Part shown: positions 29,554 to 56,580 of the stretch, in pieces | Layout of the letters: every line of letters begins with the position of its first letter | Numbering within the stretch: position 1 is the first letter of the stretch | Assembly (NCBI RefSeq): GCF_949628265.1 | Contig: NC_088786.1 | Location: 9,052,001 to 9,116,000 of the forward strand | Length of the DNA stretch: 64,000 nt | DNA from: Cloeon dipterum | Lineage: Eukaryota > Arthropoda > Insecta > Ephemeroptera > Baetidae | Direction: 5' to 3' | Made by a program: the position numbers and the translations under genes | Notes under the pieces: generated by a model | What the model saw: only the letters and a program-made list of their open reading frames with translations | Database searches by the model: none | Told to the model about the DNA's origin: nothing

Positions 29554-32500
29554 TCATCTGACGCACTGGCAAGAGTCGCGCATGTTCCGCTTCACCCAGT
29601 CCAAGTACCTGGACACTCGGGTGTACACACCCGGATACCCTGGCCGTCCACATCCTACTCCCCAGGACACGATTCCTGAAGACAAATACCAATTAGTGTT
29701 GGATCAGATAACTGCTTAATTGGGAAAGAATTACGCGTTTAGTATTTTCAACCATCTTTCCGTAGTTTATTGCTGTATTACATACAAAATATTTAAATGA
29801 GCGCAAACTGTGGAATTTCAGGTAATTTAAACAAAAGTCAAAATCGATTTTGCTCGATTAAAACAACCTTTTATTCTGAGATACCAACTAAATAATTTCA
29901 ACTGCCCAAATATTAAATAAAATGCAAATTAGAATTAGGAAAGCACTAATTATTAATAAGACAAGTAAGGTTAGAAAATAACTGAGCATAATTAATTAAA
30001 ACTTATTTGACATAAAAATAAAAACTATAATTTTGCTGTCATTTAATTAAAAATTACGTGCAATATCTGCATTAAGCAATCTTTTTTTACAAAATATTAA
30101 GCTAAAACGCGCAGATATCGGATTAATTTTACATTTAGCTAACAGACAGCACCGCCGTCATTTGAATCCAGTCCTGTTTTATGCACCACTGAGCGTGAAA
30201 AGATTAAATTTTAATTAATATAAATAACGAAAGAAACCATTCAAAGTCCTTATACTATATTATGATGACTTTTTTTTAAGTAATAACAAAAATTCGTCTT
30301 ATTTAGATTACTATATAGACAATAAAACTAGACCTGAAGTCAACGTGGAAGTGTCCAAAGCCTGCCAATAAACCATCACCATCGCACCGACAGTTAAATT
30401 AAAAGTCAAAAAGAATAGCTCACCTTGGACCTCGTATTTCGCTCCGTTTTGCACTAGCAATGGACCACCACTGTCTCCCTGTAGACGGTAATAATTAATA
30501 TAAAGCTTATCAGCTGGAACGCAGCAATTTTACCTGGCACGAGTCTTTGTTGGTGGAGCCAGCACAGAGCATGTAGGAGCTGATTCTTGTGGGCCGGTAC
30601 TGCATCTTGCGGCATTCGGTCAGTGATAGAATGGGCACCTCAACTTCCATCACGTGTGAGGGGATGCTTCCGCCCTCTGAAGTGCGGCCCCAGCCCACGA
30701 CTGTGCCAGTTTTTGCAGGCGGATCGGCAACTATATAAATATAAAAAGCATATGTCCAGCAGAAAAATCTAACAAATTTTTTAAAATTAAATAAATCATT
30801 TTCTTCTGTTTAAAAATATTTCAGTTTGAAACCAATAACATTTTAAGGCTTGATACATGTTAGTGGAAGATTGTCTCACGAGAAAATCATGTTTATTTTA
30901 TATTCAGCTTGTTTTTTTTAGCTCGAAATTAGCATTCAAATGAAAAATTGGAGGCTTCGTCAAGAAACACTTACTTTCCCTTCAACATTTAATATCAGCA
31001 TTTCACATAATAACGCAGTGCTCAATGTCTCTTTTGCCTCGTTTCTCTGCTTCATTTTTTGAGGACTCTCGCGATAACCCGTTATCAACCACATTGCCGA
31101 GAAAGTGTGTGTCGTACCTGAAGAGGGGAGGCAGACAGGTCGCACCTGTTTGCTGAAGGTGACGGGTCGGCGCAGCTTGAGGAGGGCAATGTCGTGGTTG
31201 TAGTTGGTGCCGTCGAAGTTCTTGTGCCTGATAATGGCGGAGACCGCACGCATCACGGCTGGAGCCTCAGAAGTGGAGAACTGGTCATGGTCGCCGAGCA
31301 CCACCTTGAACTTGGACCGCTTCAACCTGAGAAAGAAATCAAAATTTTTTGTATTATATTTTTAAAATGTGTAATTTGGGTTGATTTGGCTTGCCTTCTG
31401 ACGCAGTGGGCGGCGGTTAGGACGTAGTCCGAGTTCAGGAGCGAGCCGCCGCAGTGGTACTGGCCGTCGTAGACGAGTCTCGCCACCCAGGGATAGCGGT
31501 GGATTCCGGTGATCTGACCCCCGACTATCCGCGTTTCTTGATTGATCACTCCGCAATCTACAAATTAGGTTGAATTTTCTCATGACAGAGAGTAAAATCC
31601 AGGATTTAATTTTTTTTAAAGGATTTTTAAATGAAGCTTTTTTCCAAATTTACTCGCAAGAGAATTTATATATTTAATACTACAACAGCATGACATTTTT
31701 AAGATTATCAACAACAAAAATTATAAAAATTATTCTTTCATCTGCAATTTTAAAATTTTATGTAAGCCTTTAATTTAGTTTAATTTCGCTTTAGTTAACA
31801 GATATTTAGAATTTCAACATATATCCGAATGGTTAGAATTAATTAATTCTTTAGATCAATTCAAAATTTAGTTTTGATGAATATAATTAATTACATTTTT
31901 GGGTCACAGGTCAAATCAAAAGTGTCCTTTTCGCTTTGTGCCCTTTTTATCATTTTGTTTCCAAAACAAATACAGCAAAAGTAATGTTGCAATAGTTGAT
32001 CCAGTTAGTTATATATAGAATTCGAAATGACTTACTGCAAGTGCAGTTTCTAAACAAGTCAGTTTCCTCCTCCTCGTCATCATCGTCTTCGTCGACTACG
32101 GCGTTAGCGACCGAGGCAGCGTTGGTAAAAAGGCTCAAGAAGTCGTTGAAAAACAGTCTCCCTGACCTATTCACCTGAAATGGAAAATTGCAGCACGCGT
32201 TAGTCACCAAAATTGGTGCGTATATCTTTTTCTCTTTCGGTTTCTCAGCCTTACAAGCTCGAGACGAAATAATTATAGGAAGACTTAATTGTACGCACGC
32301 AGCAGTGCTAAAAAGTGTGCCCAACCAAAATTTCTCCTCGCAGGTTAAGGCGGATACGTCTCTTTAAAGGTTTTTCCTCTGCTAGTCGATGTAGGTTTGA
32401 ATAAAATTTCACTCTCTAATAACTTGTGCTTTCAACAAGCCGACGGCGCAAGCAGAGTTATGCATCATTTGGTATTGGTTACAATACACGAGGTTTTGCA

Positions 32501-34351: not shown

Positions 34352-34499
34352 GGCTGCTTGCCCAACAAACGCATTCAAAGGTGCAAATTTGCCTAAGCTG
34401 CGGCATTTCTCTTTCTTTGACACACACAGCTGGTGCGCGTGTGTGTTTGCAAATGATGTAGGACACAGCTCGATAGACAAAAATTCCCACTGCGTCGGC

Positions 34500-34505
34500 T
34501 TTATT
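34500..34505 (-). terminator. Polyadenylation signal of protease B
   Basis: TTTATT on plus reads AATAAA on minus, about 30 bp after the stop codon. The same signal occurs in block 2 at 40519. Confidence 0.6.
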
Positions 34506-34533
34506 TATTTCTTTCATTATTTTATTATTTCGT

Positions 34534-37500
34534 TCATGTACACATACAGGTGTTGGACATTTTAGACTTCAGCCAGCCCATGTACTGGGAAACTCTTGTG
34601 TAAATGCCAGGATAGCCTTCGCGGCCGCAGCCAATGCCCCAAGAAACGACGCCTGTGAAACGAGAGCAGATCGGAATCAATCTATTTTATGAATAGTAAT
34701 TCACGCGAGCTTACCGTGAACTTCGTGCTTCCCAGTCTGCGAGTTTTGCACGATAAGTGGGCCGCCGCTGTCACCCTAAAATCAAATCATGAAAGTTCAG
34801 TTCATGTCTATAGACATAATGTATTATATCCTCGAGATGCAATATTTAAAATAAGATTGTTTAATAGCACCAGTCTAGGTTATACTACATATTACAGCAA
34901 CTTTAAAACTTATCGTACGTTCCATTTTGGTAAAATTAATTTAAGCACCAGCTGATAGTTTGTCTGGATTGGCTGGACTTGAAATTTTATCAGATAAACA
35001 TATTTTTCAAAAGAAAAATAGGAATAACATATTAATTTCAAATTTGAATCAAATGCTTAAAATGGGTACACTGAAAAATTAGTTTTTTTAGACTTAAAAT
35101 GTTAGGTCATCCATTATATTCTTAAACCTTTTTAGAAACATGTGTGAACATTGCAATAAAAAAAGTCCAAAATAGACTAAATCCGAATTTTGAGTCAAAC
35201 CCAAACTGTAGATAAATGTTTGCTTTGATTTTAAATTTTGATTCCTTCTCAGGTTATTAATATTTTCGCTCTGGAAATATTTAAATCATTACAACCCTAG
35301 TTCCCCCCCCCCAACTTAACGAAAAACTCTACATGTATGTCTAGCAAAGTGATGCAAAAAATTTTATTTTATTTCAATTGAGGTTCCCCCCCCCCAAAAA
35401 AAATAAAATCATGCACCCAGAAGACATTTTGTTATGAACGAAAGCTGACGCTGCATAAATTTCAATTGAATATAATTTCACCTGGCAAGAGTCCTTATTG
35501 ACATCACCAGCGCACAGCATGTCATCAGTGATCCTGGAGGGCCTGAGCTTCATGCTCCTGCACTGCTGCTGCGACAAAATCGGGATCTCGACCTTCAGAA
35601 TCTTTCCGGAGCCCTTGCCCTTCTCGACCACCCTGCCCCATCCGGCGATCTGGCCGCTTCTCGCGGGTGGGTCTTTCATTGCTATGGACGTGACTCTTTG
35701 TTGACACTTTCTCCGGCGACGTGTGTTAATAATTGTCAATCACTTACCCGAGCCTGGCAAACACGCCGCCCTCACGCCGACGCTGAATTTGACGGGTTTG
35801 CTCAGCTTCAACAGAGCAATGTCGTTCGTGTAGTTGTCCCCGTTGTACCTTTCGTGGATGGTAACTGCTGACACCGCACTCATGAGGGTATGGATCGTTT
35901 CCCGGGTCGTTGTTTGGTCGTGGTCGCCAATCACAACTTGGACTTGCTCTTTCCTACGGCTGGATAGCGAATTCCAAATGAGTATAAGCGAGGCCGTTTC
36001 CTCAAAATTTGCTATTTGTTCTCCCTCAAAACAATTAACGATTAGATTTTAAACCTTTTTTGCTTAACTCTTTAAAATTTCCTTTTCGTTAAAACCATTT
36101 TAAGTGCATTAATTCAAGTTTGCTATGAAATCTTTCTAACTTTGGTAACATTCCATATTTGCTTTTGCCTCTCATAATTTTAACATTTCATTTCATGACA
36201 ATGAGACACGCATAGGTCAAAGCTTCATCCTTCGATTGGAACTTTTTACGTTAGCTTTTTTATACGTGTCAATAATTGTATGATATCATCACTTTCTCGT
36301 AGATTTAAAAAAAACACTAAAAATAAATTAAACTATGGAATGCATTATTTTGCGACAACGTGAAGGAAAAATTAGCATCAATTATTGATGTCGTCACAAT
36401 TTGCTTTTTGTATAGCTGCTTTCTTCGTTAATTTTTTAAATGGTAAGAGAATTCCTCCTTCCAGAAAATCAGATTTTTTATCAGTACTTTCCTGTGGTTT
36501 GATTTAAAATTAAAAAAACCAAAGCCCAAAATTTAATTTCAATTTTTCCTCAACGCCCATGTATTTTAGGCAAAGCTTACCTAACCACGCAGTGAGCAGC
36601 AGTCAGTACATATTCGTTGTTTATCAGAGCACCACCGCAAAAAGTGTGACCTTGCACTGCCATCCTAACAACCCACGGAAATTCGTGTAGCCGTGCTTCC
36701 TTCCCGCCGATGATGGGTTGCGGTCCCAGAGTATCTGCAGCCTTAAAAGCGTCGTGCTTCACACCGCATTCTGCAATTGAAGTTCAGTGAAATTTTATTT
36801 CTGCTTCCTTTTTTTACTGGTTAACGTACCGCAGGAACACTGCGGCTTTTTAACTGGAAAGATCGGCTTTGAGTCTGGCTTCGAGATCGGTTTCCAATTA
36901 TTGATGAGAATGGAATTTTGGTTTGGCCTGCTGTCCACTGACAGTGAGGTGAATGGTTTTTTGGTTGTTTTCTTGTTGAACCAGCTCGCCAAAAGTTGGG
37001 TGGGTTTTTTGGTGGCCGGCCGCAAGATCGGTTTTGATGTGACAATGCTGTTGTAGCTATAGTAGCGACCCGGAAAGGGCACGTTGTTTCTTGCGTGCCA
37101 ATCCCTTGAGTGGACCAATTGGTTGTCGGAACGCTCAGGTTGCTAGAGAAATAATTTTGAGTTAAATATTGACTCTAACAAGGAGGTTTGAAGAGCATGA
37201 TTTCGAGAACGCTATAGGTTTCTTATGCAAAAATATAATTTTGCATCAAGTAAAATTTAATAAATTAACATTAAAATATATTATTGATGGAAGCCCGAAA
37301 TGTTGGCGTTGTCAATTTTTCTGAATACAACTTTAGAATTTTTTAGTTTTTTTTAATGAATATTAACCTTCTAACTTATTTAAAAAAAATAAATAAAAAA
37401 TAAACCTTATTCGATTAATTGTATTATTATTTCACTTTTTTAATCAACAAATTATTATGTATCCATTCAGTTTTTAGTTTTGTTATTATATACCTTTTGT

Positions 37501-38184
37501 ATTTTATGATATTTAACATATAGGATTTTAATAATTTATTGTATAAAAAATTTCCAAACTTTAACTTTAGAATTCTTTCAGTGCAAAATAGTTGGTGATC
37601 TTTGTTATGCAACAACTTTTCAAATTTTGTATATCACTAGAAAATGTATTCATTCCATTTCAGACTCAAAATTATCAAAAAAGGCTACTTTAATTTTAAT
37701 TATCACCTTCCTCTTTCTTCTTGTTAATTAAATGTTTAAGAATTTCTATTTAGGAAAATATGAATAATATGAACATATTGAAAAATCCTCCACAGCTTTA
37801 AAAAAAACTGCTCAATATATGAATTTTTATGGTATTACACTGATTTCTAAACGCGTTATTTAAAAACAGTTCTGGACTATGAAAAGTATATGGTTAAAAC
37901 TTTAACGATCCCCTGACGTTTTAAAGCCCAAAAAACAGTCCCTATATAGTGAAGAAGTTTTGGAGTTTTTAATTCCCCTTTTTAAAATGTAAAAATGTGA
38001 AAAATCTAGAATTTAAAAAAAATGGTGAAAATTTTCATACCTCAATGCCATGATCTGTGATGATTCCAGGTTGATGGTCTTTAAAGTACCTAGTTCCAAT
38101 ACTGGATGGACTGAAAATTCTCAGTCCCGAGCTTAGGTTGAGGCAAGCGAAAAGAAAACCGTACTTAAATAGTGATAGATGCAT
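34534..38184 (-). CDS. Trypsin-like S1 serine protease B (duplicate copy 1)
   Basis: Seven exons on minus (38184-38041, 37142-36830, 36770-36581, 35959-35748, 35681-35482, 34775-34715, 34652-34534) give 412 residues. Exon 1 has a signal peptide ([15 protein letters not shown]). Exon 2 codes a 104-residue basic, Lys/Pro-rich pro-region ending QCSC, giving CSCECG with the next exon. The protease domain begins IIGG at residue 172, but the residue before it is Pro (GPQP), not Arg/Lys. TAAHC, NDIALL and GDSGGP are intact, and the Asp in NKDSCQ predicts trypsin-type specificity. The chain ends NTCMCT. The intact elbow suggests an active enzyme if it can be cleaved. Exon 5 could start at CCATAG or a few bases upstream; both keep frame. 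Confidence 0.92.
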
Positions 38185-38620
38185 TTTTATCAGCTCCTAA
38201 AGTGAAAATGCAAACAATTTTCCACGCGATGCCGCTTTTATTCTGTTAGCCACACTCTTCCCGGATTTCAAACCACAAATAAACAGTCACAGTTAGAGTT
38301 TAAAACAATATAATTTGTGCCACGTCACTTGACCACTCCAGGGAAATAACCCAGAGTGCCCTGAATAGATACAATGAAAACGTCTTATTCGCACTGTTTT
38401 AATGCAATCTGGGTCGCAATTTTCTGGAAAACCCCGGTGTAATTCAAAGAAAGAAACAACTCTAGTTTCGCATATAAAATTTTATTAAAATTTTTTAGTT
38501 ATAAATTAAATAATATCATTCTATGACTCTTTCAAAAACCAGTGCTGACATGCAGGAAGCGCCTATAACACATTAACACTATCGCTATAAGAATAAAATA
38601 ATTTTAATTTGTCCTCTGAC
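38185..38620. other. 5' flank of protease B, duplicated sequence
   Basis: This holds the presumed promoter. AATAAAAG-like sequence on minus near 38235 is conserved as AATAAATG in block 2 and may be a weak TATA element. No exon. Confidence 0.35.
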
Positions 38621-38725
38621 TTATTCCGTGGAGAAACACGAGTCGAGCGTGTTGCTCTTGATCCACCCTTGCGTACACACCGGGGTTCTTTGGTCTGGCA
38701 TATCCCTCACCCCAAGAAACCACAC
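38621..38725 (-). pseudogene. Orphan, decayed copy of the last exon of protease D
   Basis: This matches exon 7 of protease D (45162-45041) but is 105 bp instead of 122 bp because 17 bp are missing. The loss shifts the frame after GVYARV and removes the conserved NRYLTWIK part. GEGCARP has become GEGYARP, and the last Cys of the CFC end has become Ser. No other exon of that gene lies near it. It is a leftover of the segmental duplication and probably not functional. Confidence 0.9.
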
Positions 38726-38819
38726 CTGCGGAAAAGAAATTTAAAAAATTTTCAAGTAGAATACTGGTAAAAATATTAAATATAGGTCGTTATTTCCTGA
38801 ACACGTAATAAAAAAAAAA

Positions 38820-39023
38820 TCGGGTGTCGACCCAATTTCGGCGAGAAAGGTTCCCACGGGCTCTGATTCAAGATTAGTTCCGCGAAGATCGTCTGCTGCG
38901 AAAGACGTAAGCGGCGCGAAAGAGCCAGCCTGCTGAGTTATGTGCTCCTGGCAGCCGCGATCATTGATCGAGTCAAAATAACGTCACTCGGCCGTCTTTT
39001 TGCCTACGCAACACCACATCATC
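38820..39023. promoter_or_regulatory. Conserved GC-richer element, copy 1
   Basis: About 200 bp differ from 45234-45440 at only a handful of positions, while neighbouring intron sequence has drifted with indels. It contains the inverted repeat CGATCA-T-TGATCG and a GTGACGTT CRE-like word (minus strand). In block 2 the element lies in the last intron of protease D. Enhancer or non-coding RNA roles are possible; neither is proven. Confidence 0.4.
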
Positions 39024-39035
39024 GTTTAAATTTTA

Positions 39036-39527
39036 ATATATAATGAAGTGATAGGAAGCACAGATTTACCCATATCATTTTGGACAGTAAATCTTTTTTT
39101 ATTTCGGCGTTAGTGGTCCCTAAAATTGAACAATACTTAATTCTAGGCTTAGATTTTTGGCTTATAACTGGACTTATTCCTGACGTGAAGAAAAGGCACT
39201 ATTGGCATATTTTGTGTGCGGGTGAAAAATGCTACCAGCCAAAAGAAGCAGCAGTAGTCTTTTGTTATGAACCGGCAACAGTATTTTTTTCATTTTCTCA
39301 AATTGTCGCTGGTTTCATTTTCTTTTTCACCCAGAAATGTGAACTTTGTGTTGTATGAATTGACGAATCGGATAGCCGCAGCAAACCCTTGAACCCTCAT
39401 TTAATTAAATTCTGTACAAGAAATGAGTTGCGTTACCTTTTGCTTATTTAAGGTTAGAATTTTAATAAAAAGGCTGGCATCCTTTATTTCTAACGAAATA
39501 ATTTGAATAATGACATTTGGCCATCAC
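39036..39527. other. Spacer between duplication blocks
   Basis: No match to either block and no supported exon. The open frame 39080-39358 has no family resemblance. Confidence 0.55.
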
Positions 39528-39594
39528 AGGCTGCTTGCCCAACAATATATTCAAATGTGCTAATTTGCCTAAGCTGTGGCATTTCTCTTTCTTT

Positions 39595-40433
39595 TGTTTG
39601 CGCAAAGAGAAGGAAAAAGAATTCAAAGACTCGCTTAAATTCCAAAAAGTAGCTCCAAGACATTTCCTAGATGCTTCAGCTCGCTCCTCCTCTCTCCGCA
39701 AGTGGGTTCTCCAAATGCCAAAAAAAGAAATTCCAATAATTCCCCCAGAACAATAATTCCAAAAATGACAAGGGTGCAAAAATTCAGACCCGCAGACATT
39801 AACGAAATGAACTTTATTTAATGCTAATTCCGCGCTCACAAGAAAATTAGACATAATATTCCCAAGGATTTGCATTTAGCCGAAACTGCCTCCTAAAAAA
39901 TATCGCTGACCATAAACCCCAAGTCCGCTCTGCCACGCCAAATAACTCAGTGACGATCCCTAACTTGCTGCCGAAAACCCTTCCTAATGGTCCTCAGCGT
40001 GGCCCTGCGGCGGATGTCCTCGGCTAGCCTGCGCGCGCCCTCCAAAAAGAGACTCCTACCTTACCGAACGTGCAGAATGATCCTGGCCTGTCCTCACAGA
40101 ACGCAATATCAGTAACTAGTTAGGTCAAGACACTTGAACTCTTACTTGGTATGCACGCGGACCACGTTTCTCCTCTTTCCACCTTCTGACCGGGGTTTTA
40201 TACGGTCATCTCTCCTCCATGCGTCAGGCTCCTCCTCGTTCCCGGTCCAACTCCTTCTGGCGCTTAGTATCAGTCAGGAGGGTAGCTTTTCCTCCCTATG
40301 GTAAAACAAAGTTATGCCCCAATAACCTTCAAGCCCCCAGCAATGACATCCATCTAAAACTCCCTCTAATTTGGTGGCTCCTCTCTTCGCGGCGAGCTCC
40401 TCCTTCAAGCGCCCATGCCCTTGATCCTCACCA
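39595..40433 (-). mobile_element. Probable solo LTR inserted in duplication block 2
   Basis: Block 1 reads CTCTTTCTTTGACACAC without a break; block 2 is split at this point by 839 bp. The insert begins TG and ends CA and is flanked by CTTT on both sides, the pattern of an LTR with a 4-bp target duplication. Read on minus, it has TATAAAA (40196-40202) and then AATAAA (39813-39818) in the order expected for an LTR promoter and polyadenylation signal. It has no coding sequence. The LTR superfamily is not recognised. Confidence 0.62.
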
Positions 40434-40518
40434 CTTTGACACACACAGCTGGTGCGCGTGAGTGTTTGCAAATGATGTAGGACACAGGTCGATAGACAAA
40501 AATTCCCACTGCATCGAC

Positions 40519-40524
40519 TTTATT
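40519..40524 (-). terminator. Polyadenylation signal of protease C
   Basis: TTTATT on plus reads AATAAA on minus, 29 bp past the stop, as in protease B. Confidence 0.6.
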
Positions 40525-40552
40525 TATTTCTTTCATTATTTTATTATTTCGT

Positions 40553-43500
40553 TCATGTACACATACAGGTGTTGGACATTTTAGACTTGAGCCAGCCCCT
40601 GTACTGGGAAACTCTTGTGTAAATGCCAGGATAGCCTTCGCGGCCGCAGCCAATGCCCCAAGAAACGACGCCTGTGAAACGAGAGCAGATAGGAATCAGT
40701 CTATTTTATGAATAGTAATTCACGCGAGCTTACCGTGAACTTCGTGCTTCCCAGTCTGCGAGTTTTGCACGATAAGTGGGCCGCCGCTGTCATCCTAAAA
40801 TCAAATAACTAAAGTTAATTTAGTGTCTATTATAGCGTCAAGATGCAATAATTAAAATAAGATTGTTAAATAGCATTAGTCTCGTTTTTACCACATAATA
40901 CAGCAAATTTAAAACTCATCGTATGTTCCATTTTAATCTAACAAATTCAAGCACCAGCCGATTGTTTGTCTGGATTGACTGGACTTAAAATTTTATCACA
41001 TTAACATATTTTTAAAACGAAAATAGGAATAATAATTAATTAATTTCAAATTTGAATAAAATAAATAAAGTATCATATTATTGTATTGCTTCAAAATGCT
41101 TTGATGGGCAAACTAAAAAAATGAGTTTATTTAGACTTAAAATGCTAGGTTGATTGTTATCTCAAAGCCCTTTAAAATCACGCATTAACATAACAATAAA
41201 AAAATTGAAATTCAAAATAGACTAAATCTGAATTTTGAGCCAAATCCAAGCACCCCCAAACTGTAGATGTTTGTTTTGATTTTAAATATTTATTTCCTCT
41301 CATGTCATTAATATTTTCACTCGGGAAATATTTAAAATACTAGTTTTTCCACCCTCCAAATCCAGTTTTTCAACTTAGTGAAAAACTCTACATGTATGTC
41401 TAGCAAAGTGATGCAAAAAATTTATATTTTATTTCAATTGAGGTTCCCCCCCCCCCAAAAAAAAAATAATAAAATCATGCACCCAGAAGACATTTTGTTA
41501 AGAACGAAAGCTGACGCTGCATAAATTTCAATTGAATATCATTTCACCCGGCAAGAGTCCTTATTGACTTCACCAGCGCACAGCATGTCATCAGTGATCA
41601 TGGAGGGTCTGAGCTTCATGCTCCTGCACTGCTGCTGCGACAAAATCGGGATCTCGACCTTCAGAATCTTTTCAGAGCCCTTGCCCTTCTCGCCCACCCT
41701 GCCCCATCCGGCAATCTGGCCGCTTCTCGCGGGTGGGTCTTTCATTGCTATGGACGTGACCTTTGTTGACACTTTCTCCGGCGACGTGTGTTAATAATTG
41801 TCAATCACTTACCCGAGCCTGGCAAACACGCCGCCCTCACGCCGACGCTGAATTTGACGGGTTTACTCAGCTTCAACAGAGCAATGTCGTTCGTGTGGTT
41901 CTCCGCGTTGTACCTTTCGTGGATGGTAATTGCTGACACCGCTCTCATGAGGGTATGGATCGTTTCCCGGGTCGTTGTTTGGTCGTGGTCGCCGATCACA
42001 ACTTGGACTTGCTCTTTCATACGACTGGATATAGAATTATAGATGAGTTTAAGCGAGGCCGTTTCCTCAAAATTTGCGATTATAAAAAATCTTTACACTT
42101 TCTCAATACAATAACAGTTTAACCTTTTTTGCTTAATTCTTTAAAATTTCCTTCTGATTAAAACATTATTAAGTGAATTAATAACTAATTCAAGTTTGCT
42201 AGGACATGTTTCAAATTTTGGTAACACTATTATTTCAACTTCGTGTACATAGGTCAATATTTCATAATTGGATTAGAAATTTTTTACGTGAGCTTTTCAT
42301 ATGCATTAATCACTTCCTTGTAGATTTTATAATATATTGAATAAATTGAAACACTGAAAAAATAAAGTATTACAGAAGGCAACAAATATGAAGGAAAATC
42401 AGCATTAATTTGAAGACGTTACAATTATGCTTTTTTAATAATTTTTTGTAATTTTTCATGTTAGGAGAATTTACCTATTCATTTGATGCGATTTTTTATT
42501 AATACTTTCCCGTGGTTTGACTTAAAATTAAAAAAATGCAACAAAAAAGCCCAAAATATAATTTGAATTTTTCTTTAACGCCCAGGTATTTTAGGCAAAA
42601 CTTACCTAACCACGCAGTGAGCAGCAGTCAGGACATACTCGTTGTTTATCAGAGCACCACCACAAAAAGTGTGACCTTGCTCTGCCATCCTAACAACCCA
42701 CGGAAATTCGTGCAGCAGTGCTTCCTTCCCGCCGATGATGGGTTGCGGTCCCAGAGGATCTGCAGCCTTGAAAGCGTCGTGCTTCACACCGCATTCTGCA
42801 ATTGAAGTTCAGTGAAATTTTATTTCTGCTTCCTTTTTTACTTAAGATATGGTATATAATCGTACCACAGGAACACTGCGGCTTTTTGAATGGAAAGATC
42901 GGCTTTGAATTCGGCTTCGAGATCGTTTTCCAATTATTGATGACAATGTCATTTTGGTTTGGCCGGCTGACTACTGACGTTGAGGAGAATGGTTTTTTGG
43001 TTGTTTTCTTGTTGAACCAGCTCGCCAAAAGTTGGGTGGGTTTTTTGGTGGCCGGCCGCAAGATCGGTTTTGATGTGACAATGCTGTTGTAGCTATAGTA
43101 GCGATCCGGAAAGGGCACGTTATTTCTTGCGTGCCAATCCCTTGAGTGGACCAATTGGTTGTTGGAATGCTCAGGTTGCTAGAGAAATAATTTTGAGTTA
43201 AATATTGACTCTAACAAGGAGGTTTTAAGAGCATGATTTCGAGAACGCTATAGGTTTCTTATGCAAAAAAATGCATCAAGCAATATTTAATAAATTAACA
43301 TTAAAACTAATTATTGATAGATATCGACGAAGGCACGCGAGGTTGTCCATTTGTCTGAATATAATTTTACAATATTTTGGTTTTTTAATGAAAATTTACG
43401 TTTTTGATTTATTTTATAAATAATAAATATAAAAATATCAACCTTATTTGATTAAATGTGTCAAAATTTCACTTTATTTTTTATTCAACAAATTATTATA

Positions 43501-44641
43501 AATCAATTTAATTTTAGTTTTGTTATCAAATACTTATATTGTATTGTATGTTTCATTGAAAGATACTTAACTTTTTGGATTTCAATAATTTATTGTTTTA
43601 GAGTCCATACTTTTACTTTAAAATTCTTTCAGTGCAATATGGTTGGTGATCTTTACTGTCCCACAACTTTTCAAAATAGATTTTTGTATCACTAGAAAAT
43701 GTATTAATTCCATTTCAGACTCAAAATGATCAAAAAATGCTACTTTAATTTTAAATATCACTTCGTCTTTCTCCTTATGTAAATTAAATGTTTAAGAATT
43801 TCGATTTGGGAAAATATGCGTATAATTTATTATGGCTTTTCGATAGGAAGACAGGAAATCAAACAAACCTGAAACGTTAAAAATAAATCATTAAATAGAA
43901 ATGTGGCGAATGTCAATTGTATCAATGTTCTAGCAAAGAGCGAAAGAACTTCCTATATGATTAAGCATGATGATTAATCGTTTAATTTGAAACAGATTGT
44001 AGTTCTGACTTATATATATTTTTTTCTTTAGTTAAAATACGTCTAAAAATATGAACTAATGTAGCTGAATAAATTCAACATCAACATCCTATTTCTCCAC
44101 CAAAATGCATAAAAATTCTTGAAAAATGCAGCTAAACTGACTTAATTTACTCTTAGAAATTAAAATTTTATGCTCTCTCCAGCTAAATTTACAGAATATA
44201 ATTTTTAAGAAATTCCATTACAGTTAAAAAATGTGCTCAATGTTGAATTTTTAACTGATTTTTATGGTATTACACTGATTTCTAGACGCATTATTTAAAA
44301 ACAGTTCTGGACTATGAAAATTATGTGATTTCAATTTTAACGATCCCCTCTGACGTTTTAAAGCCAAAAAACAGTAGACCGCCTAAAATTCACAGCCCCT
44401 ATATAGTGAAGAAGTTTTGGAGTTTTTAATTCCCCTTTTTAAAATGCAGAAAAGTGAAAAATCTAGAATTAAAAAAAAATGATTTAAAATTTCATACCTC
44501 AATGCCATGATCTGTGATGATTCCAGGTTGATGGTCTTTAAAGTACCTAGTTCCAATACTGGATGGACTGAAAATTCTCAGTCCCGAGCTTAGGTAGAAG
44601 CAAGCGAAAAGAAAACCGTACTTAAATAGTGATAGATGCAT
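40553..44641 (-). CDS. S1 serine protease C (duplicate copy 2) with altered active-site loop
   Basis: Seven exons on minus (44641-44498, 43178-42866, 42795-42606, 42024-41813, 41747-41548, 40794-40734, 40671-40553) give 412 residues, every exon the same length as in protease B. Signal peptide, Lys/Pro-rich pro-region and CSCECG are kept, as is Pro before IIGG. TAAHC, NDIALL and Ser195 are present. However, the sequence around the nucleophile reads DSCR-DDSGGP instead of DSCQ-GDSGGP: Gln192 to Arg (CAG to CGG) and Gly193 to Asp (GGT to GAT). Gly193 supplies an oxyanion-hole NH, so activity is probably reduced or changed. The donor of the preceding intron is now CGG|GTGAAA, still usable. It may be an inactive homolog, an inhibitor-resistant variant, or an early pseudogene. 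Confidence 0.9.
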
Positions 44642-45040
44642 TTTTATCAGCTCCTAAAGTGAAAATGCAAACAATTTTCCACGCGATGCCGCATTTATTC
44701 TGTTAGCCACACTCCTCCCGGATTTCAAACCACAAATAAACAGTCACATTTAGAGTTTAAAACAATATAATTTGAGCCACGCTACTTGACCACTCCAGGG
44801 AAATAACGTCTTATTTGCACTCTTTTAATACAATCTGGGTATATATTAATTTTCTGGGAAACCCCGGTGTAATTCAAGGAAAGAAACAACTCTCGTTTCA
44901 CATAAAAAATTTTATTAAAAACATTTAATTTTATAAATTAAATAATATCATTATATGACTCTTTCAAAAACCAGTGCTGACAGGAAGCGCCTTTAACACA
45001 TTAATCGCTAAGAATAAATTAATTTGAATTTTTCTCTGAC
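44642..45040. other. Between protease C start and protease D stop
   Basis: This duplicated sequence has the presumed promoter of protease C and the 3' UTR of protease D. TTTATT at 44911-44916 reads AATAAA on minus, about 125 bp past the protease D stop. Confidence 0.45.
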
Positions 45041-48000
45041 TTATTCCGTGCAGAAACACGAGTCAGGCGTGTTGCTCTTGATCCAAGTCAGGTACCTGTT
45101 CACCCTTGCGTACACACCGGGGTTCTTTGGTCTGGCACATCCCTCACCCCAAGAAACCACACCTGCGGAAAAAAATTTAAGTGATATTATGGTCAAAGTA
45201 TTGGTCGTTATTTGCTGGACACATAATTAAAAAAATCGGGTGTCGACCCAATTTTAGCGAGGAAAATTCCCACGGGCTCTGATTCAAAATTAGTTCCGCG
45301 AAGATCGTCTGCTGCGAAAGACGTAAGCGGCGCGAAAGAGCCAGCCTGCCGAGTTATGTGCTCCTGGCAGTCGCGATCATTGATCGAGTCAAAATAACGT
45401 CACTCGGCCGTCTTTTTGCCTACGCAACGCCGCCACATCATCATTAAAATTTTGCCCGCCAACCCAACACCTCCTGTCACTATCATTTTTATACAAATTT
45501 TAAAATTTAAATTTAATTTGAATCTCAAAATTAATAAACTATTCAAATGGGGATAAATTTCCTGTGCTTTTTGAACAATTTGTTTTGCCTCAGACCGAAT
45601 TTTGAAATCAAATTGTGTAGCTAACCGCGCCCAGAATTGCAGAATTCGAATTAAGAAAAATAATAAATTAATTAACTAATTTATTTTCAAACATATAGTC
45701 GTTTGAAAAATGCGGTTCCTAATTTTGAAACTTGCTGCAAGAGCTTGGTGTGTTGGCGGCCTATACTGAGTGAAAATTGTTATTGTTTTGAATCGCGACT
45801 GACTATCTACGGTTTTGTGCTGCCCTGATAGATTTTCTGAACCTGCTGACTCTCGTGGCGAACACTCCCACCCAAAGAATGGAGAGAGACGGAGACTGTG
45901 CACGTGTCGCGCATCAAATATACACGGGGAGAGGTTAGTTAGAGCGCAGTAGTGCCGGTCTCCGATTGAAGGTGGTGGTACTGTACGCTGCTGGTGCTCG
46001 CCAATATCAAATATCAAAACTCCTAGCAAGCCAAACTGGAGTACTTGTTTTCTTAAAAGATGTATTATTGTTTAATTGGGGTTAAAAAATTAGTTTAAAT
46101 TATAATTTTTTCTTGCGTTGTGGAAAATTTAACTTGGAGGAATGATATTATTTTTTGTCTTGGTAGGTGACGCGTAAAAAGCAAGTGGCCTTTGGCACCC
46201 ACTTTGCACATTGAACTTGATCATCCATGAGAGAGCGAGACAAACTAAATATAGCTCCGTCACACTCAAATCTTTGATAAAAAGCGTCAACTTTGGCTTG
46301 GGCCCCGCTACGTTTGTCTGCGCTCCTGGCACAGACGACGCCTCGATGTTGAGCCTTAGACGCCCATACCGATTTTGCGCACCGCGCTGCCCGATTGGGC
46401 TTGGCTGTTCGACGAGCGTTCCCACCCAACTCTGGTGCCCCGTTCTCCAGCCGGCTGGCAGCACTCGCCGGTGAGGCTATTCTCTGCCAAATCGGTTTTT
46501 CCGGACTCGAATTGGGCCAAGAACAATTTTTATTAGGGAAACAATCACTTCCATGCAAATGTGCTCAACAAAAGCAATTCAATTATATTTGGTTTCGGGT
46601 TGGTTTCCTTGAGCAATTATTTATTATTGACTTCTAAAAATTTGGCAATCAAATTTTGATTGACTCTGTTAAAAATGACAAGATATATTTGGTTATGTAG
46701 TTTTAACTTAAAATTATTGAATTAGATTTTTTTGAAATATAACTGACAACTATTTGGAATCAAAAATATAGAAGAATTATTCTCTCGTTTCTGATTGATA
46801 TAAATATTTTAAAAATTCTAAGCCCAATTCTTTTACCACTAAAATTTAATTTATATCCACTATAATATTATGAAATCGGGGAGATTGAAGATTGAATGTT
46901 TGGCAGCTTATGGTTGGTTTTGGCTCCGGAGAAGGTTTAGATGATAATAAGTGTGGTTCTAATTACGTAAATCGTGCTAATTTGGTAACTAAAAGTAAAT
47001 GAGACGAGCAGAGAAGCCCAGATCGTTTAAATTAGTCTCCAAAAGGTAAAAAAGTAAAATATTTTCTTACCGACGATTTGGTAAACAGACTCGTTCTTCA
47101 CAACCATAGGGCCACCACTGTCTCCCTGCAATTTCAAAGATTTCAAATTATGAATAAATCAGTTCTACAGAAAATGAATTTGAATATACCTGGCAAGAGT
47201 CCTTTCCTCCTTCAGGAAGTCCGGCGCAGATCATATTTTCGGTGATTTGGCTGGTTCCGTAGAATCCGGAGCACTTTGTATTGGACATGATTGGCACGGT
47301 GACTTCCCTGAGGACGGGCGATGTAGGACGGTTCTCGGCAGTCTTGCCCCAGCCAGTGACTAAAGCGTTTTCATTTGTGTATCGTTTGCCTGTTAAACGA
47401 AAAAATGAAATATGATGCACTGAAAATTATTTTCTCCTAAAGGTATACGGACCAGGAGTTGGCAGGCAGGCGGGGTAGAGGTCACCCTTGATCGGCACCT
47501 CCTTGTCCATCCTGAGCAGGGCAATATCGTTGTTGAAGGTGTTTGGGTTGTATTTGTTGTGGTAGATGATTTTGGAGACGCTTCGGTCGATCGGTTTGGT
47601 TTCTGAGGAGGTGTCGCGGTTGTGCTCCATCAGTCTGATTCCCATGCGATTGGCGGTAAATCTGCAAATTTTAAATTAAAAATATATATTTGCGATTTGT
47701 TTTCGAAAGAGAAAGTTTCAGAGAAAAAATATTGCTTTAATTATTATTGATAAAGAGCCCTTCAAATAGTTTTAAAGTTAGTCCAATGTTGTTCATTTTG
47801 CTTAATATGTATGTATTAAAATTTATAAAGAGATGAAATTCAACATATTCAACAAACGGTCAAAGATTTAATAAAAAGATTGTTTGCATTCACGTCTGGA
47901 AAAACATCAATTTTGAAATCTTCCTCTCTTCCCCATGTTAAAAAACCAATCTTTTTTAATAAAATTTAAACTAATTTTAAAGAGTCAGTTTAATTTACCC

Positions 48001-50905
48001 TTTGACGCAGTGAGCTGCCGTGAGGATGTATCTCTTGTTGATCAAGGTTCCTCCGCAGTAGAACCGGCCGTCGTAGTTCAAAACCGCCATCCAGGAGTAC
48101 ATATTGACTTTGGTTTCCTGGCCACCAACGATCCTGAGGGTTTTGGCCACGCCGCATTCTGTAAGCAAAAGAAATACGGTTGATTTATAACGCAATGAAA
48201 GAAAAAAACACTCTACCAGACAGCACGGGGAGAAAGTACGCCGCGCGACATTGAATATTTATTACATGTTTTAATGGAAAAGGATTGTGCTGCTCCTCTC
48301 TTTCTTCGTGTTTTCACATTTTTTCATAATAACAATGCGGGCGCGAGTAAATCCCTTGATCGGGCAAGGACAACGGCACTCTTGTTTTCACAAGAGAATT
48401 ATAAAAGCTGCATCAGAAAGGATTTAAAGGATGCTGCTTTGGCTGGCTTTTCTTGATCAAAATAGTTACGTTGGAAGAGTTTATTTATTTTTTTCATAAT
48501 CTCACTTTCAACTTTCGAACGTTATTCACTTTCGTCGCGGCCGCGTGCATAATTAATCATGGAAACGAGAGCTGAAGAATTTTGCACGCGACACAAGAGG
48601 CACGTGAAAGAGCGAGTGCCGATATTTGCGTAGCCCAGTTGACGGCGCTAATTACTCTCTTTTTCCGCAACGCATGAAAATTCACAAACTCACTGCAATC
48701 GCAAGTAGGAAAGTTGACAGCCGGGCCGGTCGTCTCCACGTCCTCTACGGACACCCCAGCGCTGTCGGGGTTTGTGCCGCTGCCGACGGTGGTTCCAGAC
48801 GTGCTGCCGGAGCCGCTGAAAATCCAGTTCCACAAGTTGGAGAGGATTCCTTTGTCGTCCCTGCTGATGCCAGTCGCGTTCTTGATCGAGATGAAGTCAC
48901 TGATGTCCCTCACGCTGTAGTGCATCAGCACCCACGACTGCAAACAAAAAATTACATGTTTTCATTGGAAAATTTTAAAAACATTTTGTAGATTTGAACC
49001 TCAAATTGAAATATTTGAAAGCAATTTTTCTTAATAAATTTGGCAGTGATATTGTTTTAATCACTAGATTAATTTAAAACCTATGGAATTTTAGTTTTAA
49101 CTTTATTGAAGATCAGCAAATCCTTAAAAATTGAAGGTTTGCAAAATACATCGTAATCTACTGTTTTTTTTTTACCACAAACCCATTCAGCAGTAAACTT
49201 AAAATCCTGATTTTTCACTTAAACTCATAACATTTTCGCTGATTTTCGGTGTCTTGATGTCTAAAAATTAAATTGATATATTGCTTCAAATAAATTTACG
49301 GCAAGAAAAATTATCTATATACAATTTTTAAACACTTTTGTCTTGCAAAATCATCGTATGCTCCCTAAAATTTTGATAGTTTAATATTGTTGCTGTTTGT
49401 TTTAACTACTTTGATTTGCACGCTGCTAATTGCATTAGCGGCGACAAAAGCAAAAGAAAGTGCATGGAGCGACATAAGCGTCTCCTTCCTTCGATTTGCT
49501 AGCTGGCAAGGTAATTATATTGCACCGCAAAAGCAGGTCAATCTGCATGTAAATGGAATGCTTGCAAGCGGAGCTAAAATGTCCCATCGGTGGTGATAGT
49601 TAGTTAGTTAATGCCAGTGAAGCACTGCTGACAGCCTCTCTCAGGAGCCTCGCGCCGCAACTTTTATTATTAGCACCGCGCAAATGCACAAGGTACAGTT
49701 TTTCAATCACTTTTGCGCCACTTTTCACTCTTATCAGCAGATATCTGCCGCGATATTCTTTCTCCTGTTGCGCCAGACGACATTTCACATATCCACACGG
49801 TGCGCCCTTGAATTCGAAACATTGCTGACTGAGTAATATTTACACACACGCGTGTGTGTGCACGAGTTGTATTGAAATGTCAGATGGAAACTGAAAGCGG
49901 TGCGGGATTCCCTCAAGGTCTACTGATCTCCACGCGAGTGCCATCTTTTTCCTGCTCCAAAAAAGTTGAAATATATGCTGCCGCAGCGAGAGAAATTCAT
50001 GCTATTGCCCTGATTTGGAACACGTTTCGTTGGTTTGCTTTCATATGAACTTGATCAACCATTTCGCAATCTGAATCTAATATTAATAAAATCAATATTG
50101 ATACAAAAATATTTACTAGGAAAGAAATCAATGATGTTTAAAAGGCCCCCTAATGATGCCCCTTTACGAATTTTTTTAAATAAAAAAATTTTTTGAAAAT
50201 AATTTTGAGTAAGTTTTGCTTGTTGGAATTTAATAATTGGCTATTACCGAGAATCGAACTCCAAAAAGCGTTTTCAAACTTCAAAAGTTCACCAATATTG
50301 GGGGACTATGTACTATAAGTAAAATATTTCTCATAAATCTATTTTATATCAAAAGGTTTCAATTCAAATAGGAAAAATGATCTGCAATAAAGCTAGTTCT
50401 GCCCACTTTTTTCTATCTCACAATTAGACTTCTAAAATATTCGAAACAAATCGAATTTAAATAAGTCGAAATAACTAGTTTCGAAATCCAAATCTAATTT
50501 CTGTAAAATTTGGTACTTGATATTGTATGCAAATGCCATGGCTAATCAACTGTTACACGCGTTCTTGAATCGAACAATACCCGCGTACAACTATGACATG
50601 CGCGTGTTTACAATAAAACATACAATGTAAACTCAAGGCCCGCCAACCAACTTTGCAGCAAATGTGAAACATCCCAAAATTCAACCTGAATTAGTGAGAA
50701 AAATCCAGGGAAAACCAAATTTTCTGGACCCGAAAATATTATGAAAAAAGGAATAATTCAGGAAAATGTTACTTACAGGAATTTCCGCCTCGGAGTTGAA
50801 CATGGGCTGCAAGTTATGCGATCCTTGCGGCAGCACAGGCGAGGTGCGTGCGTGCACCTGCACGAGCAGCAGGACCGCGAGTGACCAAAAAGCGAGAGGT
50901 ACCAT
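45041..50905 (-). CDS. Trypsin-like S1 serine protease D
   Basis: Seven exons on minus (50905-50777, 48937-48694, 48158-47999, 47661-47453, 47389-47190, 47125-47071, 45162-45041) give 372 residues. Exon 1 has a clear signal peptide ([19 protein letters not shown]). The pro-region is Ser/Gly/Thr-rich, followed by CDCKCG. Activation is expected after Arg133 before IVGG (mature residues 134-372). TAAHC, NDIALL and GDSGGP are present. Asp in GGKDSCQ predicts cleavage after Arg/Lys. The chain ends DSCFCTE. The last intron (45163-47070) contains the far edge of the duplication, so only its final exon was copied into block 1. The donor after exon 4 is G|GTCCGT, chosen because it keeps phase 1 like the paralogs. 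The intron 48938-50776 holds only AT-rich sequence and a CG/CA palindrome. Confidence 0.92.
45234..45440. promoter_or_regulatory. Conserved GC-richer intronic element, copy 2
   Basis: Located in the last intron of protease D and nearly identical to 38820-39023, including the CGATCA-T-TGATCG inverted repeat. The element lies just inside the duplication edge. Confidence 0.4.
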
Positions 50906-53851: not shown

Positions 53852-56580
53852 ATGCAGGATTTTCTCGGCTACTGCAGCTTTTTGCTTCTGCTTTCTCTCA
53901 CCCTGGTGCAAAGTGCACCTCAACTGAAGCAGGTCGAGGTGAGTAAATTTCGTTTTCCGTTTTCCTTTTTTGTCTCGATCCCGTGCTAATTGACTTTCGC
54001 TCTCGTTTCGCCGCCGGCGCGTGCTTCGAAGTAATTCCATTTCACATAGATGAGGGCTTTGATTTATTTTGAAATTCTTTGTTCCCATAATAACAGAAAT
54101 TTTCAAACATTCTTTTGGGTTTCCTCTAAATTTCCTTGGCCCAAAGTCTGATGTTTTTCCTCGGATTATGATTCACGATCCACGCCTTTATGTAATCCCT
54201 TCTTAGAAAGTTCACGTCAATTACTTAACTGCGATGAGAGTGAATTTTATCCTATAATTTCTCCTTCGAATTTTCCCGGCTAAAACCGGATTAGAATTTA
54301 ACACCTAGTGGGCATTAACTGATGTCTGTTGTGTGTCATGTGTTCGTACAGGCCTACTACGACGACTATGATGCAACCACGTCGGCTCCTGATTGTGACT
54401 GCGGTGCGTTTTCTAATTATTAACGTGATAGTTGTTATTAATTACCAGCGCTTCACGCCAGCCGCGATTTTTCCATCACTTTGCTCTCGCTTTAATCAAA
54501 CCTAATAATGCCACAAACTCTTGATAACAGCTGAACCGTTTTTTTTTATTTTCAGTCTAACTAGTGCGATATATATTTGCTTTTTATTAAGCAAATAATA
54601 TATAAATAATTGTGGAATTACTTCCAGTAAATGCCGTAGAGAAAATGTAAGATAAAATTTGTGTTGATACCGAAGTAAAAAATAATTATTTTAAAACTTA
54701 ACTTTCTCCTCAATATTGATTGAAAGTATTGGAAAGGAACATCTTCAACATCTTATCGACCGTTAAATTCGCTTAAAATTACTAAATCAAGTTTGTCATT
54801 TTTTATAAATTAATCTTAAAATAAATTCAATAAATTTTAGTCATTTATCACAGTTAAATTTGTATTAAAAATAAACTAACCATTTTATTTAAAAAAAAAT
54901 TAATTTATTAAAAAATTAATTGAATGCAGTATTAAACATATAATATAGGTGCAAAGAAAAAATCATCAATTCTAATTTTATGATTTAGTTTGTGGAGTTC
55001 CTAACCCGAAAACTCGTGTTGTCGGCGGCAACGTGACAATGCCGAACGAGTTCCCGTGGGTCGTGGCCCTCGAGAGGAGGAATAAATTCTACTGCGGTGC
55101 CACCCTGATCTCGAGCAAACACGTGCTGACAGCCGCTCACTGCATCGACGGGTGAGAGCTGTCGAATTTACGCACCTTGGACCCCTGCTCATTCAATTAT
55201 TTGCAAATAATAATGTCGCAGTTTCAACACCCGAGAAATCAAGGTTTACATGGGCGTGCACAACAGACTTGCCATGAACTCGGAGACGACGCTGGTGAGG
55301 AAAATCAAAAAGGCGGTAGTGCACCCCAAGTTCGACATCTTCTCATTTGACAATGACATTGCCATGCTGCACCTGAACGAGGAGGTCGAATTCACTCAGA
55401 TTATCAAGCCCGCATGTCTGCCTACGCAAGGTGAGCATTGTTTGTTTGTGCGCCGCTAGTGACGACTTTGACAATAATTCAGCAATTCGGCATTGAATAG
55501 CGCAGATAATAACGCTAATTTATTGAATCACGCCCAATGTTAATCGTCTTTTAAACGCGCCGTCGCTGATTCACTCTTCCTTTTGTCTGAATTATGTTTT
55601 GTGTCTATATATGTGGGCAGCTTCAAGGGAAATTGATTGCAAGTAAAATGCTTCGGCCTTACCAATTCCACGAACGCTATCTCTTTAAAGTGGACGCATT
55701 TTAAAACAATATTTGAGTTAATTGTCACTTTAGGCGAGGGGAAACGCCACGTTTGTGTTTGTTATCGAGAAAACTTCCACTTTCCTAGAATCAGGCGTGT
55801 TTTCCTGCGCATCAAGCAATTGCAGAACGCTTTTAAGTTGCCACGTTTTCATTAGGTAGCATTTTTTTATTTTCTCTGAAATCAACAAAGAAGGTTTCTT
55901 TGAAATGCTGATTAAATTTATCTTCGCCCTCATTTTCGCTCACATATAGTTAATACACTTTTGATACAAACCAATTGTCAAGTCCATTTTCTCATTTGAA
56001 AGGAAAAACATCTGAAATTTTGTTTCAATTTGAATTTTTAGCCCGGTCCGACTACAGCGGTTACAACGGCATCGTCGCCGGCTGGGGTCGTCTTGGAGAG
56101 AAGAAGTCCACTGCCATCGAGCTGATGAAGGTTGACGTGCCCATGATGACCATGGAGCAGTGCAGAAAGTCTGGCTACGGCGAGACCCGCATCACCGACA
56201 ACATGATCTGCGCTGGATACACCGAGGGCAAGAAGGACGCTTGCCAGGTAAGTTCTTTTTGATGTGTCTAGTATTTCGTGAGTAATTAAATTCAATTTTA
56301 TTAAAAACTGTGAATAACCCGATATATGAATTTAAAGGGTGACAGCGGTGGCCCCATGCACATTAACATCGCTGCCGGAGTGACCGAGCTCATTGGTAAT
56401 TTCTGCACTCTTTTCCATGAGATTAAAATTACTAAATCTTTTTTTAAATCAGGAATCGTTTCCTGGGGTCGCGGATGTGCCCGTCCCAACTTCCCTGGTG
56501 TGTACACCAACGTTGCCACCTATTTGGACTGGATCAACAACCAGATGACGTCCGACGAGTGCGTCTGCAAACGGCCGTAA
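53852..56580 (+). CDS. Trypsin-like S1 serine protease E
   Basis: Seven exons (53852-53938, 54352-54403, 54989-55151, 55222-55430, 56042-56247, 56338-56395, 56453-56580) give 300 residues. A signal peptide ends near QSAP. The pro-region is short and acidic ([10 protein letters not shown]), leading to CDCVCG. Activation is expected after Arg56 before VVGG. TAAHC, NDIAML and GDSGGP supply the triad, and Asp in KKDACQ predicts trypsin-like specificity. The chain ends ECVCKRP. Intron positions and phases equal those of proteases A-D although the gene is on the other strand, so an inversion accompanied the expansion. Its pro-region is the shortest in the cluster. Confidence 0.94.

Follow-up and report, generated by a model that had tools for sequence, protein, structure and literature searches.

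The tandem-duplicated serine protease gene that we refer to as copy C encodes Arg192 and Asp193 next to an intact catalytic serine, at positions at which its sister gene, copy B, encodes Gln and Gly. We tentatively favor the reading that copy C is a functional S1A protease, the substrate cleft of which has been remodeled since the split from B, and which has a narrow specificity. In the window, i.e., the whole stretch of 64,000 nucleotides analyzed, the two genes and the two codons are located as follows.

40553 to 44641, minus strand: copy C, serine protease gene encoding 412 amino acids (gene model, splice sites)
44641-44498, 43178-42866, 42795-42606, and 42024-41813, minus strand: exons 1 to 4 of copy C (gene model)
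41747-41548, 40794-40734, and 40671-40553, minus strand: exons 5 to 7 of copy C (gene model)
34534 to 38184, minus strand: copy B, sister gene of C with seven exons (gene model)
38184-38041, 37142-36830, 36770-36581, and 35959-35748, minus strand: exons 1 to 4 of copy B (gene model)
35681-35482, 34775-34715, and 34652-34534, minus strand: exons 5 to 7 of copy B (gene model)
41548 to 41550, minus strand: codon 192 of copy C, CGG (Arg); in copy B, CAG (Gln) at 35484-35482
40792 to 40794, minus strand: codon 193 of copy C, GAT (Asp); in copy B, GGT (Gly) at 34775-34773

A preliminary description of this DNA stated that all seven exons keep frame and length in C, and the gene models bear this out. 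Exon lengths are equal in B and C (144, 313, 190, 212, 200, 61, and, to the stop codon, 119 nucleotides), all six introns have GT...AG ends in both genes, and both frames are open over 412 residues. The products share a layout in which a hydrophobic N-terminus is followed by a long pro-region rich in proline and basic residues, the motif CSCECGVK, and the catalytic domain. By eye, the hydrophobic stretch looks like a signal peptide, and C is probably secreted. The PF00089 profile scores the catalytic domain at 214.5 bits in C and 223.3 bits in B (cut-off 20.6). Pfam matches to the two proteins comprise only Trypsin, DUF1986, and a sub-threshold Trypsin_2, with no clip domain model among them (E value of 0.001). 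His57, Asp102, Ser195, and Asp189 are present in both proteins (motifs TAAHC, NDIALL, KDSC, and DSGGP), and G216 and G226 are also retained in C. Judged by the profile, the catalytic triad, and Asp189, B and C are trypsin-like serine proteases of the chymotrypsin family (S1A). Insect serine protease homologs (SPHs) are recognized by the loss of a triad residue, and the triad of C is intact; with its bulky residue at 193 and its intact triad, C resembles the Gly193-substituted S1 proteases of the mesotrypsin type.

The interval from 40734 to 41747, singled out in the preliminary description, corresponds to exons 5 and 6 of copy C. Codon 192 ends exon 5, codon 193 opens exon 6, and a phase-0 intron lies between them; both gene models give DSCR-DDSGGP for C and DSCQ-GDSGGP for B, as that description had read them. 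Its statement that each exon has one base change is correct for codons 192 and 193 but not for exon 5 overall, in which 8 of 200 bases differ; in exon 6, the two copies differ at 1 of 61 bases. By eye, we saw no alternative splice sites that would avoid Arg192 and Asp193, and the GT and AG of intron 5 are equally placed in B and C. The backbone NH of Gly193 contributes to the oxyanion hole, and an Asp at this position retains the backbone NH while adding bulk and charge on the S1'-S2' side.

B and C are part of a cluster of trypsin-type genes at 29-57 kb, with A, B, C, and D on the minus strand and E on the plus strand (a slash precedes residue 16).

29557 to 31557, minus strand: gene A, paralog with R/IVGG, Q192, and G193 (catalytic part, joined by eye)
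45044 to 48158, minus strand: gene D, next paralog, with R/IVGG, Q192, and G193 (catalytic part, joined by eye)
54988 to 56577, plus strand: gene E, further paralog, with R/VVGG, Q192, and G193 (catalytic part, joined by eye)
38596 to 38741, minus strand: stretch beside copy B containing a relic of gene D's final exon (17 bases missing)

Because A, D, and E keep Gln192 and Gly193, with the oxyanion-hole Gly193 also found in B, Arg192 and Asp193 are derived in C, and on this comparison both changes arose in copy C. Gene A is 54% identical to B (133/247). In the relic of the gene D exon, Tyr and Ser replace Cys of gene D; the presence of this decayed exon beside B argues for block-wise tandem duplication, and neither copy is therefore the "original" by position. 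The possibility that C is a haplotype of B was rejected based on this relic and the divergence of the long introns (see below). A dispersed repeat lies just downstream of copy C (39640-40430), and the corresponding place beside B is without it; this repeat has 42 matches in the genome counting itself, some of which are paired at distances of 1.6-8 kb.

The position of the changes in the catalytic domain points to more than the two codons. To describe the cleft, we used a list of segments based on the known S1 subsites that covers 74 of 241 residues and was fixed post hoc; residue numbering between anchors is approximate, so that each residue has two labels, either of which was accepted. With gene A as an outgroup, we polarized 16 differences (15 in the catalytic domain and one in the pro-segment). 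Five of them were assigned to C and two to B, and the remaining nine, eight of which are in the catalytic domain, could be placed on neither branch. The five changes assigned to C, at about 96, 99, 175, 192, and 193, are all inside the cleft list (binomial probability of 0.004 against the share of 0.33 among A-B variable sites, with small n and a post hoc list), while the two assigned to B (about 83-93) are outside it. The difference between five changes on one branch and two on the other is not significant ((5-2)^2/7 = 1.3, calculated by hand). Of all the catalytic-domain positions at which B and C differ (15), 9 are inside the list, with a hypergeometric probability of 0.015 and, against the A-B variable-site share, a binomial probability of 0.027, both subject to the list being post hoc. 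We regard this clustering as a pointer and not as proof. Because all five changes assigned to C are in the cleft list, we favor a remodeled protease of narrow specificity over a generic loss of function, and the changes at about 96, 99, and 175 suggest that the entire substrate cleft was altered.

For such a protease, we infer activity, specificity, inhibitor behavior, and secretion from its sequence. The loop of the oxyanion hole and the S1'-S2' side would be affected by Gln192Arg and Gly193Asp, S2/S4 by Tyr99His and Gly96Ala, and the S3/S4 rim by Arg175Met. The two residues at 192 and 193 would probably give C a different or weaker activity. Generic tryptic substrates would be expected to be cut far less, prime-side preference to be altered, and canonical inhibitors to fit worse; with the S1 pocket residue Asp189 and the triad remaining, C would cleave few natural substrates, or one. 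C carries Arg143 (numbered by anchor) alongside Arg192, and in chymase, the basic residues Arg143 and Lys192 set a preference for acidic P2' residues, according to PMC3686865.

A possible alternative, which we nevertheless doubt, is that C is a pseudoprotease that acts by binding, as a decoy, scaffold, or cofactor, its catalysis having been removed by the side chain and charge of Asp193 next to Asp194 and the oxyanion hole. C would then be like the insect SPHs, with a triad kept merely through recent common descent. The conservation of Gly193 is in agreement with this possibility. In the genome (190 Mb, 10 contigs; pattern counts set against a reversed control), GGN codons precede those for DSGGP at 66 + 48 = 114 places, proteases or not, compared to 3 + 1 in the reversed controls, i.e., about 4 expected. 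Places with other codons (74, plus those listed among 107) were matched by eye to the trypsin matches listed, using exact DSGGP motifs only; among these matches, three such places are inside trypsin exons, i.e., C, which alone among the trypsin-type exons compared has Asp193, and two with Ala193. Gly193 therefore appears to be nearly invariant in the trypsin-type genes of this genome. The two Ala193 genes (L077, C1:30305579, and L078, C4:4996449) have an intact DSGGP. The Asp193 pattern occurs at 8 places genome-wide, compared to 6 in the reversed control, and 4 of the 8 encode DDSGGP; the three of these that are not C were rejected as Asp193 proteases because they are outside protease reading frames. 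In a PDB peptide search with part of C exons 5-7, the best 5 of 76 matches had Gly193. Literature searches for Asp193 proteases, for Gly193 in clotting factors, and for insect protease homologs gave nothing usable, and a search for Gly193Glu gave no match containing that word. A study of factor XI Gly193Glu (Schmidt 2004) is among the references of PMC2967472.

Also in agreement with a pseudoprotease, the basic residue before Ile16 is already gone in B and C, and it may be that an Asp carboxylate so close to the oxyanion hole just eliminates catalysis. Against it, the triad, D189, G216, and G226 are all retained in C. Moreover, Gly193Asp alone does not imply inactivity: mouse KLK13, the prorenin-converting enzyme of the glandular kallikrein family, has this residue and is stated to be active in PMC2967472. 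KLK13 is, like C, an S1A protease from a clustered gene family and, unlike C, a mammalian kallikrein; the comparison with C covers residue 193 and the family setting. KLK10, with Gly193Ser, did not cleave synthetic substrates in a study cited in PMC2967472; it resembles C as a paralog in which Gly193 is replaced and the triad kept, and differs from it in having Ser. It is already known that Gly193 can be replaced, also by Asp, in duplicated S1 genes that retain the triad, and C is a new instance of this.

We consider it unlikely that C is redundant with B and in an early stage of relaxed decay, with the changes at 192 and 193 being ordinary substitutions that precede the loss of the frame. Over 412 codons, B and C have 19 synonymous and 31 non-synonymous differences, and 31 residues differ. 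The ratio of dN (0.033) to dS (0.073), which the preliminary description had proposed to compute, is 0.45 and thus below 1; for the catalytic domain, dN is 0.027, dS 0.071, and the ratio 0.39. These values are pairwise point estimates and cover the branches of B and C together. A ratio near 0.45 is not indicative of strong constraint, and one change hit the usually conserved Gly193, both of which fit relaxed decay. By contrast, the 1,239 coding bases have no disabled splice site, stop codon, or indel while the long introns have diverged by 19%, and the changes that map to C do not scatter over the fold. With the triad, Asp189, and the reading frame preserved and a dN/dS of about 0.45, simple decay is unlikely, and the argument made against it in the preliminary description holds.

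The divergence between the two genes forms a mosaic across 34415-45439. In the long introns (1, 3, and 5), 403 of 2,132 aligned bases are different (19%) and there are many gaps, compared to 9 of 186 bases (5%) in the short introns (2, 4, and 6), 4 of 116 (3%) in the 3' flank, and about 1-6% in the exons; from exon 6 through the 3' flank, there are 9 differences in 361 bases, among them Gly193Asp. This pattern suggests that gene conversion homogenized parts of the B/C pair and kept them alike, and if so, Gly193Asp would be a late, or a retained, change. Alternatively, the long AT-rich introns may change faster or align more poorly.

It seems improbable to us that C is a mesotrypsin-like protease that resists inhibitors, with bulky charged residues at 192 and 193 that block the canonical inhibitor loops but still allow small substrates to be cleaved. 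Human mesotrypsin (trypsin-3) has Arg193, and Gly193Arg in human trypsin-1 conferred mesotrypsin-like inhibitor resistance, as stated in PMC8609519. Like C, mesotrypsin is a trypsin paralog in which a bulky, charged residue has taken the place of Gly193; however, its residue is Arg and its resistance is demonstrated, whereas the charge in C is opposite, and the S2-S4 residues of C have also changed, which is unneeded for resistance alone. Viper venom serine proteases (rhinocerases and TSV-PA) have Val, Thr, Ala, or Phe at 193, and PMC3123349 suggests that a bulky residue there lowers inhibitor sensitivity and substrate interaction; they resemble C as family members with Gly193 replaced and differ from it in having uncharged residues and a venom function. 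From such precedents, the suggestion in the preliminary description that C is either weakened or inhibitor-resistant is a reasonable one.

Finally, we give hardly any credence to assembly or consensus errors at codons 192 and 193, as the changes are two transitions separated by a 753-base intron, and C has 48 further coding differences from B with no frameshift.

A functional protease with a remodeled cleft would also have to be activated, and here B and C share a feature that the preliminary description overlooked, i.e., a Pro before Ile16.

42740 to 42766, minus strand: insertion of nine residues, AADPLGPQP, with Pro before Ile16, in copy C (gene model, alignment)
36715 to 36741, minus strand: insertion of nine residues, AADTLGPQP, with Pro before Ile16, in copy B (gene model, alignment)

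The insertion sits between the place of the basic cleavage residue of the paralogs and Ile16 and reads GPQP/IIGG; the alignment places a Lys of B and C at the Arg position of the paralogs, followed by the insertion and IIGG. An Arg or Lys before Ile16, usual for trypsin-type activation though not universal, is thus absent in B and C, while Arg precedes Ile16 or Val16 in A, D, and E. For other activation sites, 58 stretches were picked from the trypsin matches listed, of which 53 were readable by eye. At these 53 sites, residue 15 is Arg or Lys in 37 and another residue in 16 (8 Gln, 3 His, 2 Phe, and one each of Tyr, Asn, and Ser), and none of the 53 has Pro. Compared to A, D, E, and the 53 readable sites, the Pro and the nine-residue insertion are confined to the B/C pair, and together with Asp193 they appear to be an unusual combination within this genome. 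Counting a short Pro-Ile-x-Gly-Gly pattern was too unspecific to be of use (323 places compared to 217 in the reversed control). The eight trypsin-type sites with Gln before Ile16 are L088, L097, L098, L099, L113, L116, L118, and L126, and a GQFPWQ-like segment follows in most of them.

A cut by a trypsin-like enzyme after the Lys would leave nine extra residues ahead of Ile16, which would then be unable to form its usual salt bridge with Asp194. Because Pro precedes Ile16, ordinary trypsin-type cleavage would be unable to free Ile16 in B or C, and even B may therefore not be a normal protease; its status as an ordinary active protease is uncertain. Judged from these residues, the B/C pair must need a different activating enzyme or never attain the ordinary active form. 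If B and C are switched on at all, an unusual mechanism would be required, and the Pro with the nine-residue insertion may mean that there is no active form whatever, which speaks against a functional C. Two X-Pro dipeptides, Gly-Pro and Gln-Pro, form the end of the insertion, immediately before Ile16, so that trimming by a dipeptidyl peptidase is conceivable, although this is a guess. Dipeptidases trim some other zymogens. It is a long shot that B and C left trypsin-type activation for DPP4-like trimming (...L/GP/QP/IIGG) after an upstream cut, and that selection then made C a single-substrate protease with Arg192-Asp193 and a new S2-S4 surface. Human alpha-tryptase is likewise the product of a duplication that retains the triad but has an altered cleavage residue in its propeptide and an Asp in its active-site cleft; this Asp is at about 216, whereas that of C is at 193. 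The literature searched, PMC4471246 included, did not confirm these details.

The B/C pair is a natural test of how far S1 proteases tolerate a departure from Gly193, and also of the way in which a protease is activated when Pro precedes its Ile16.
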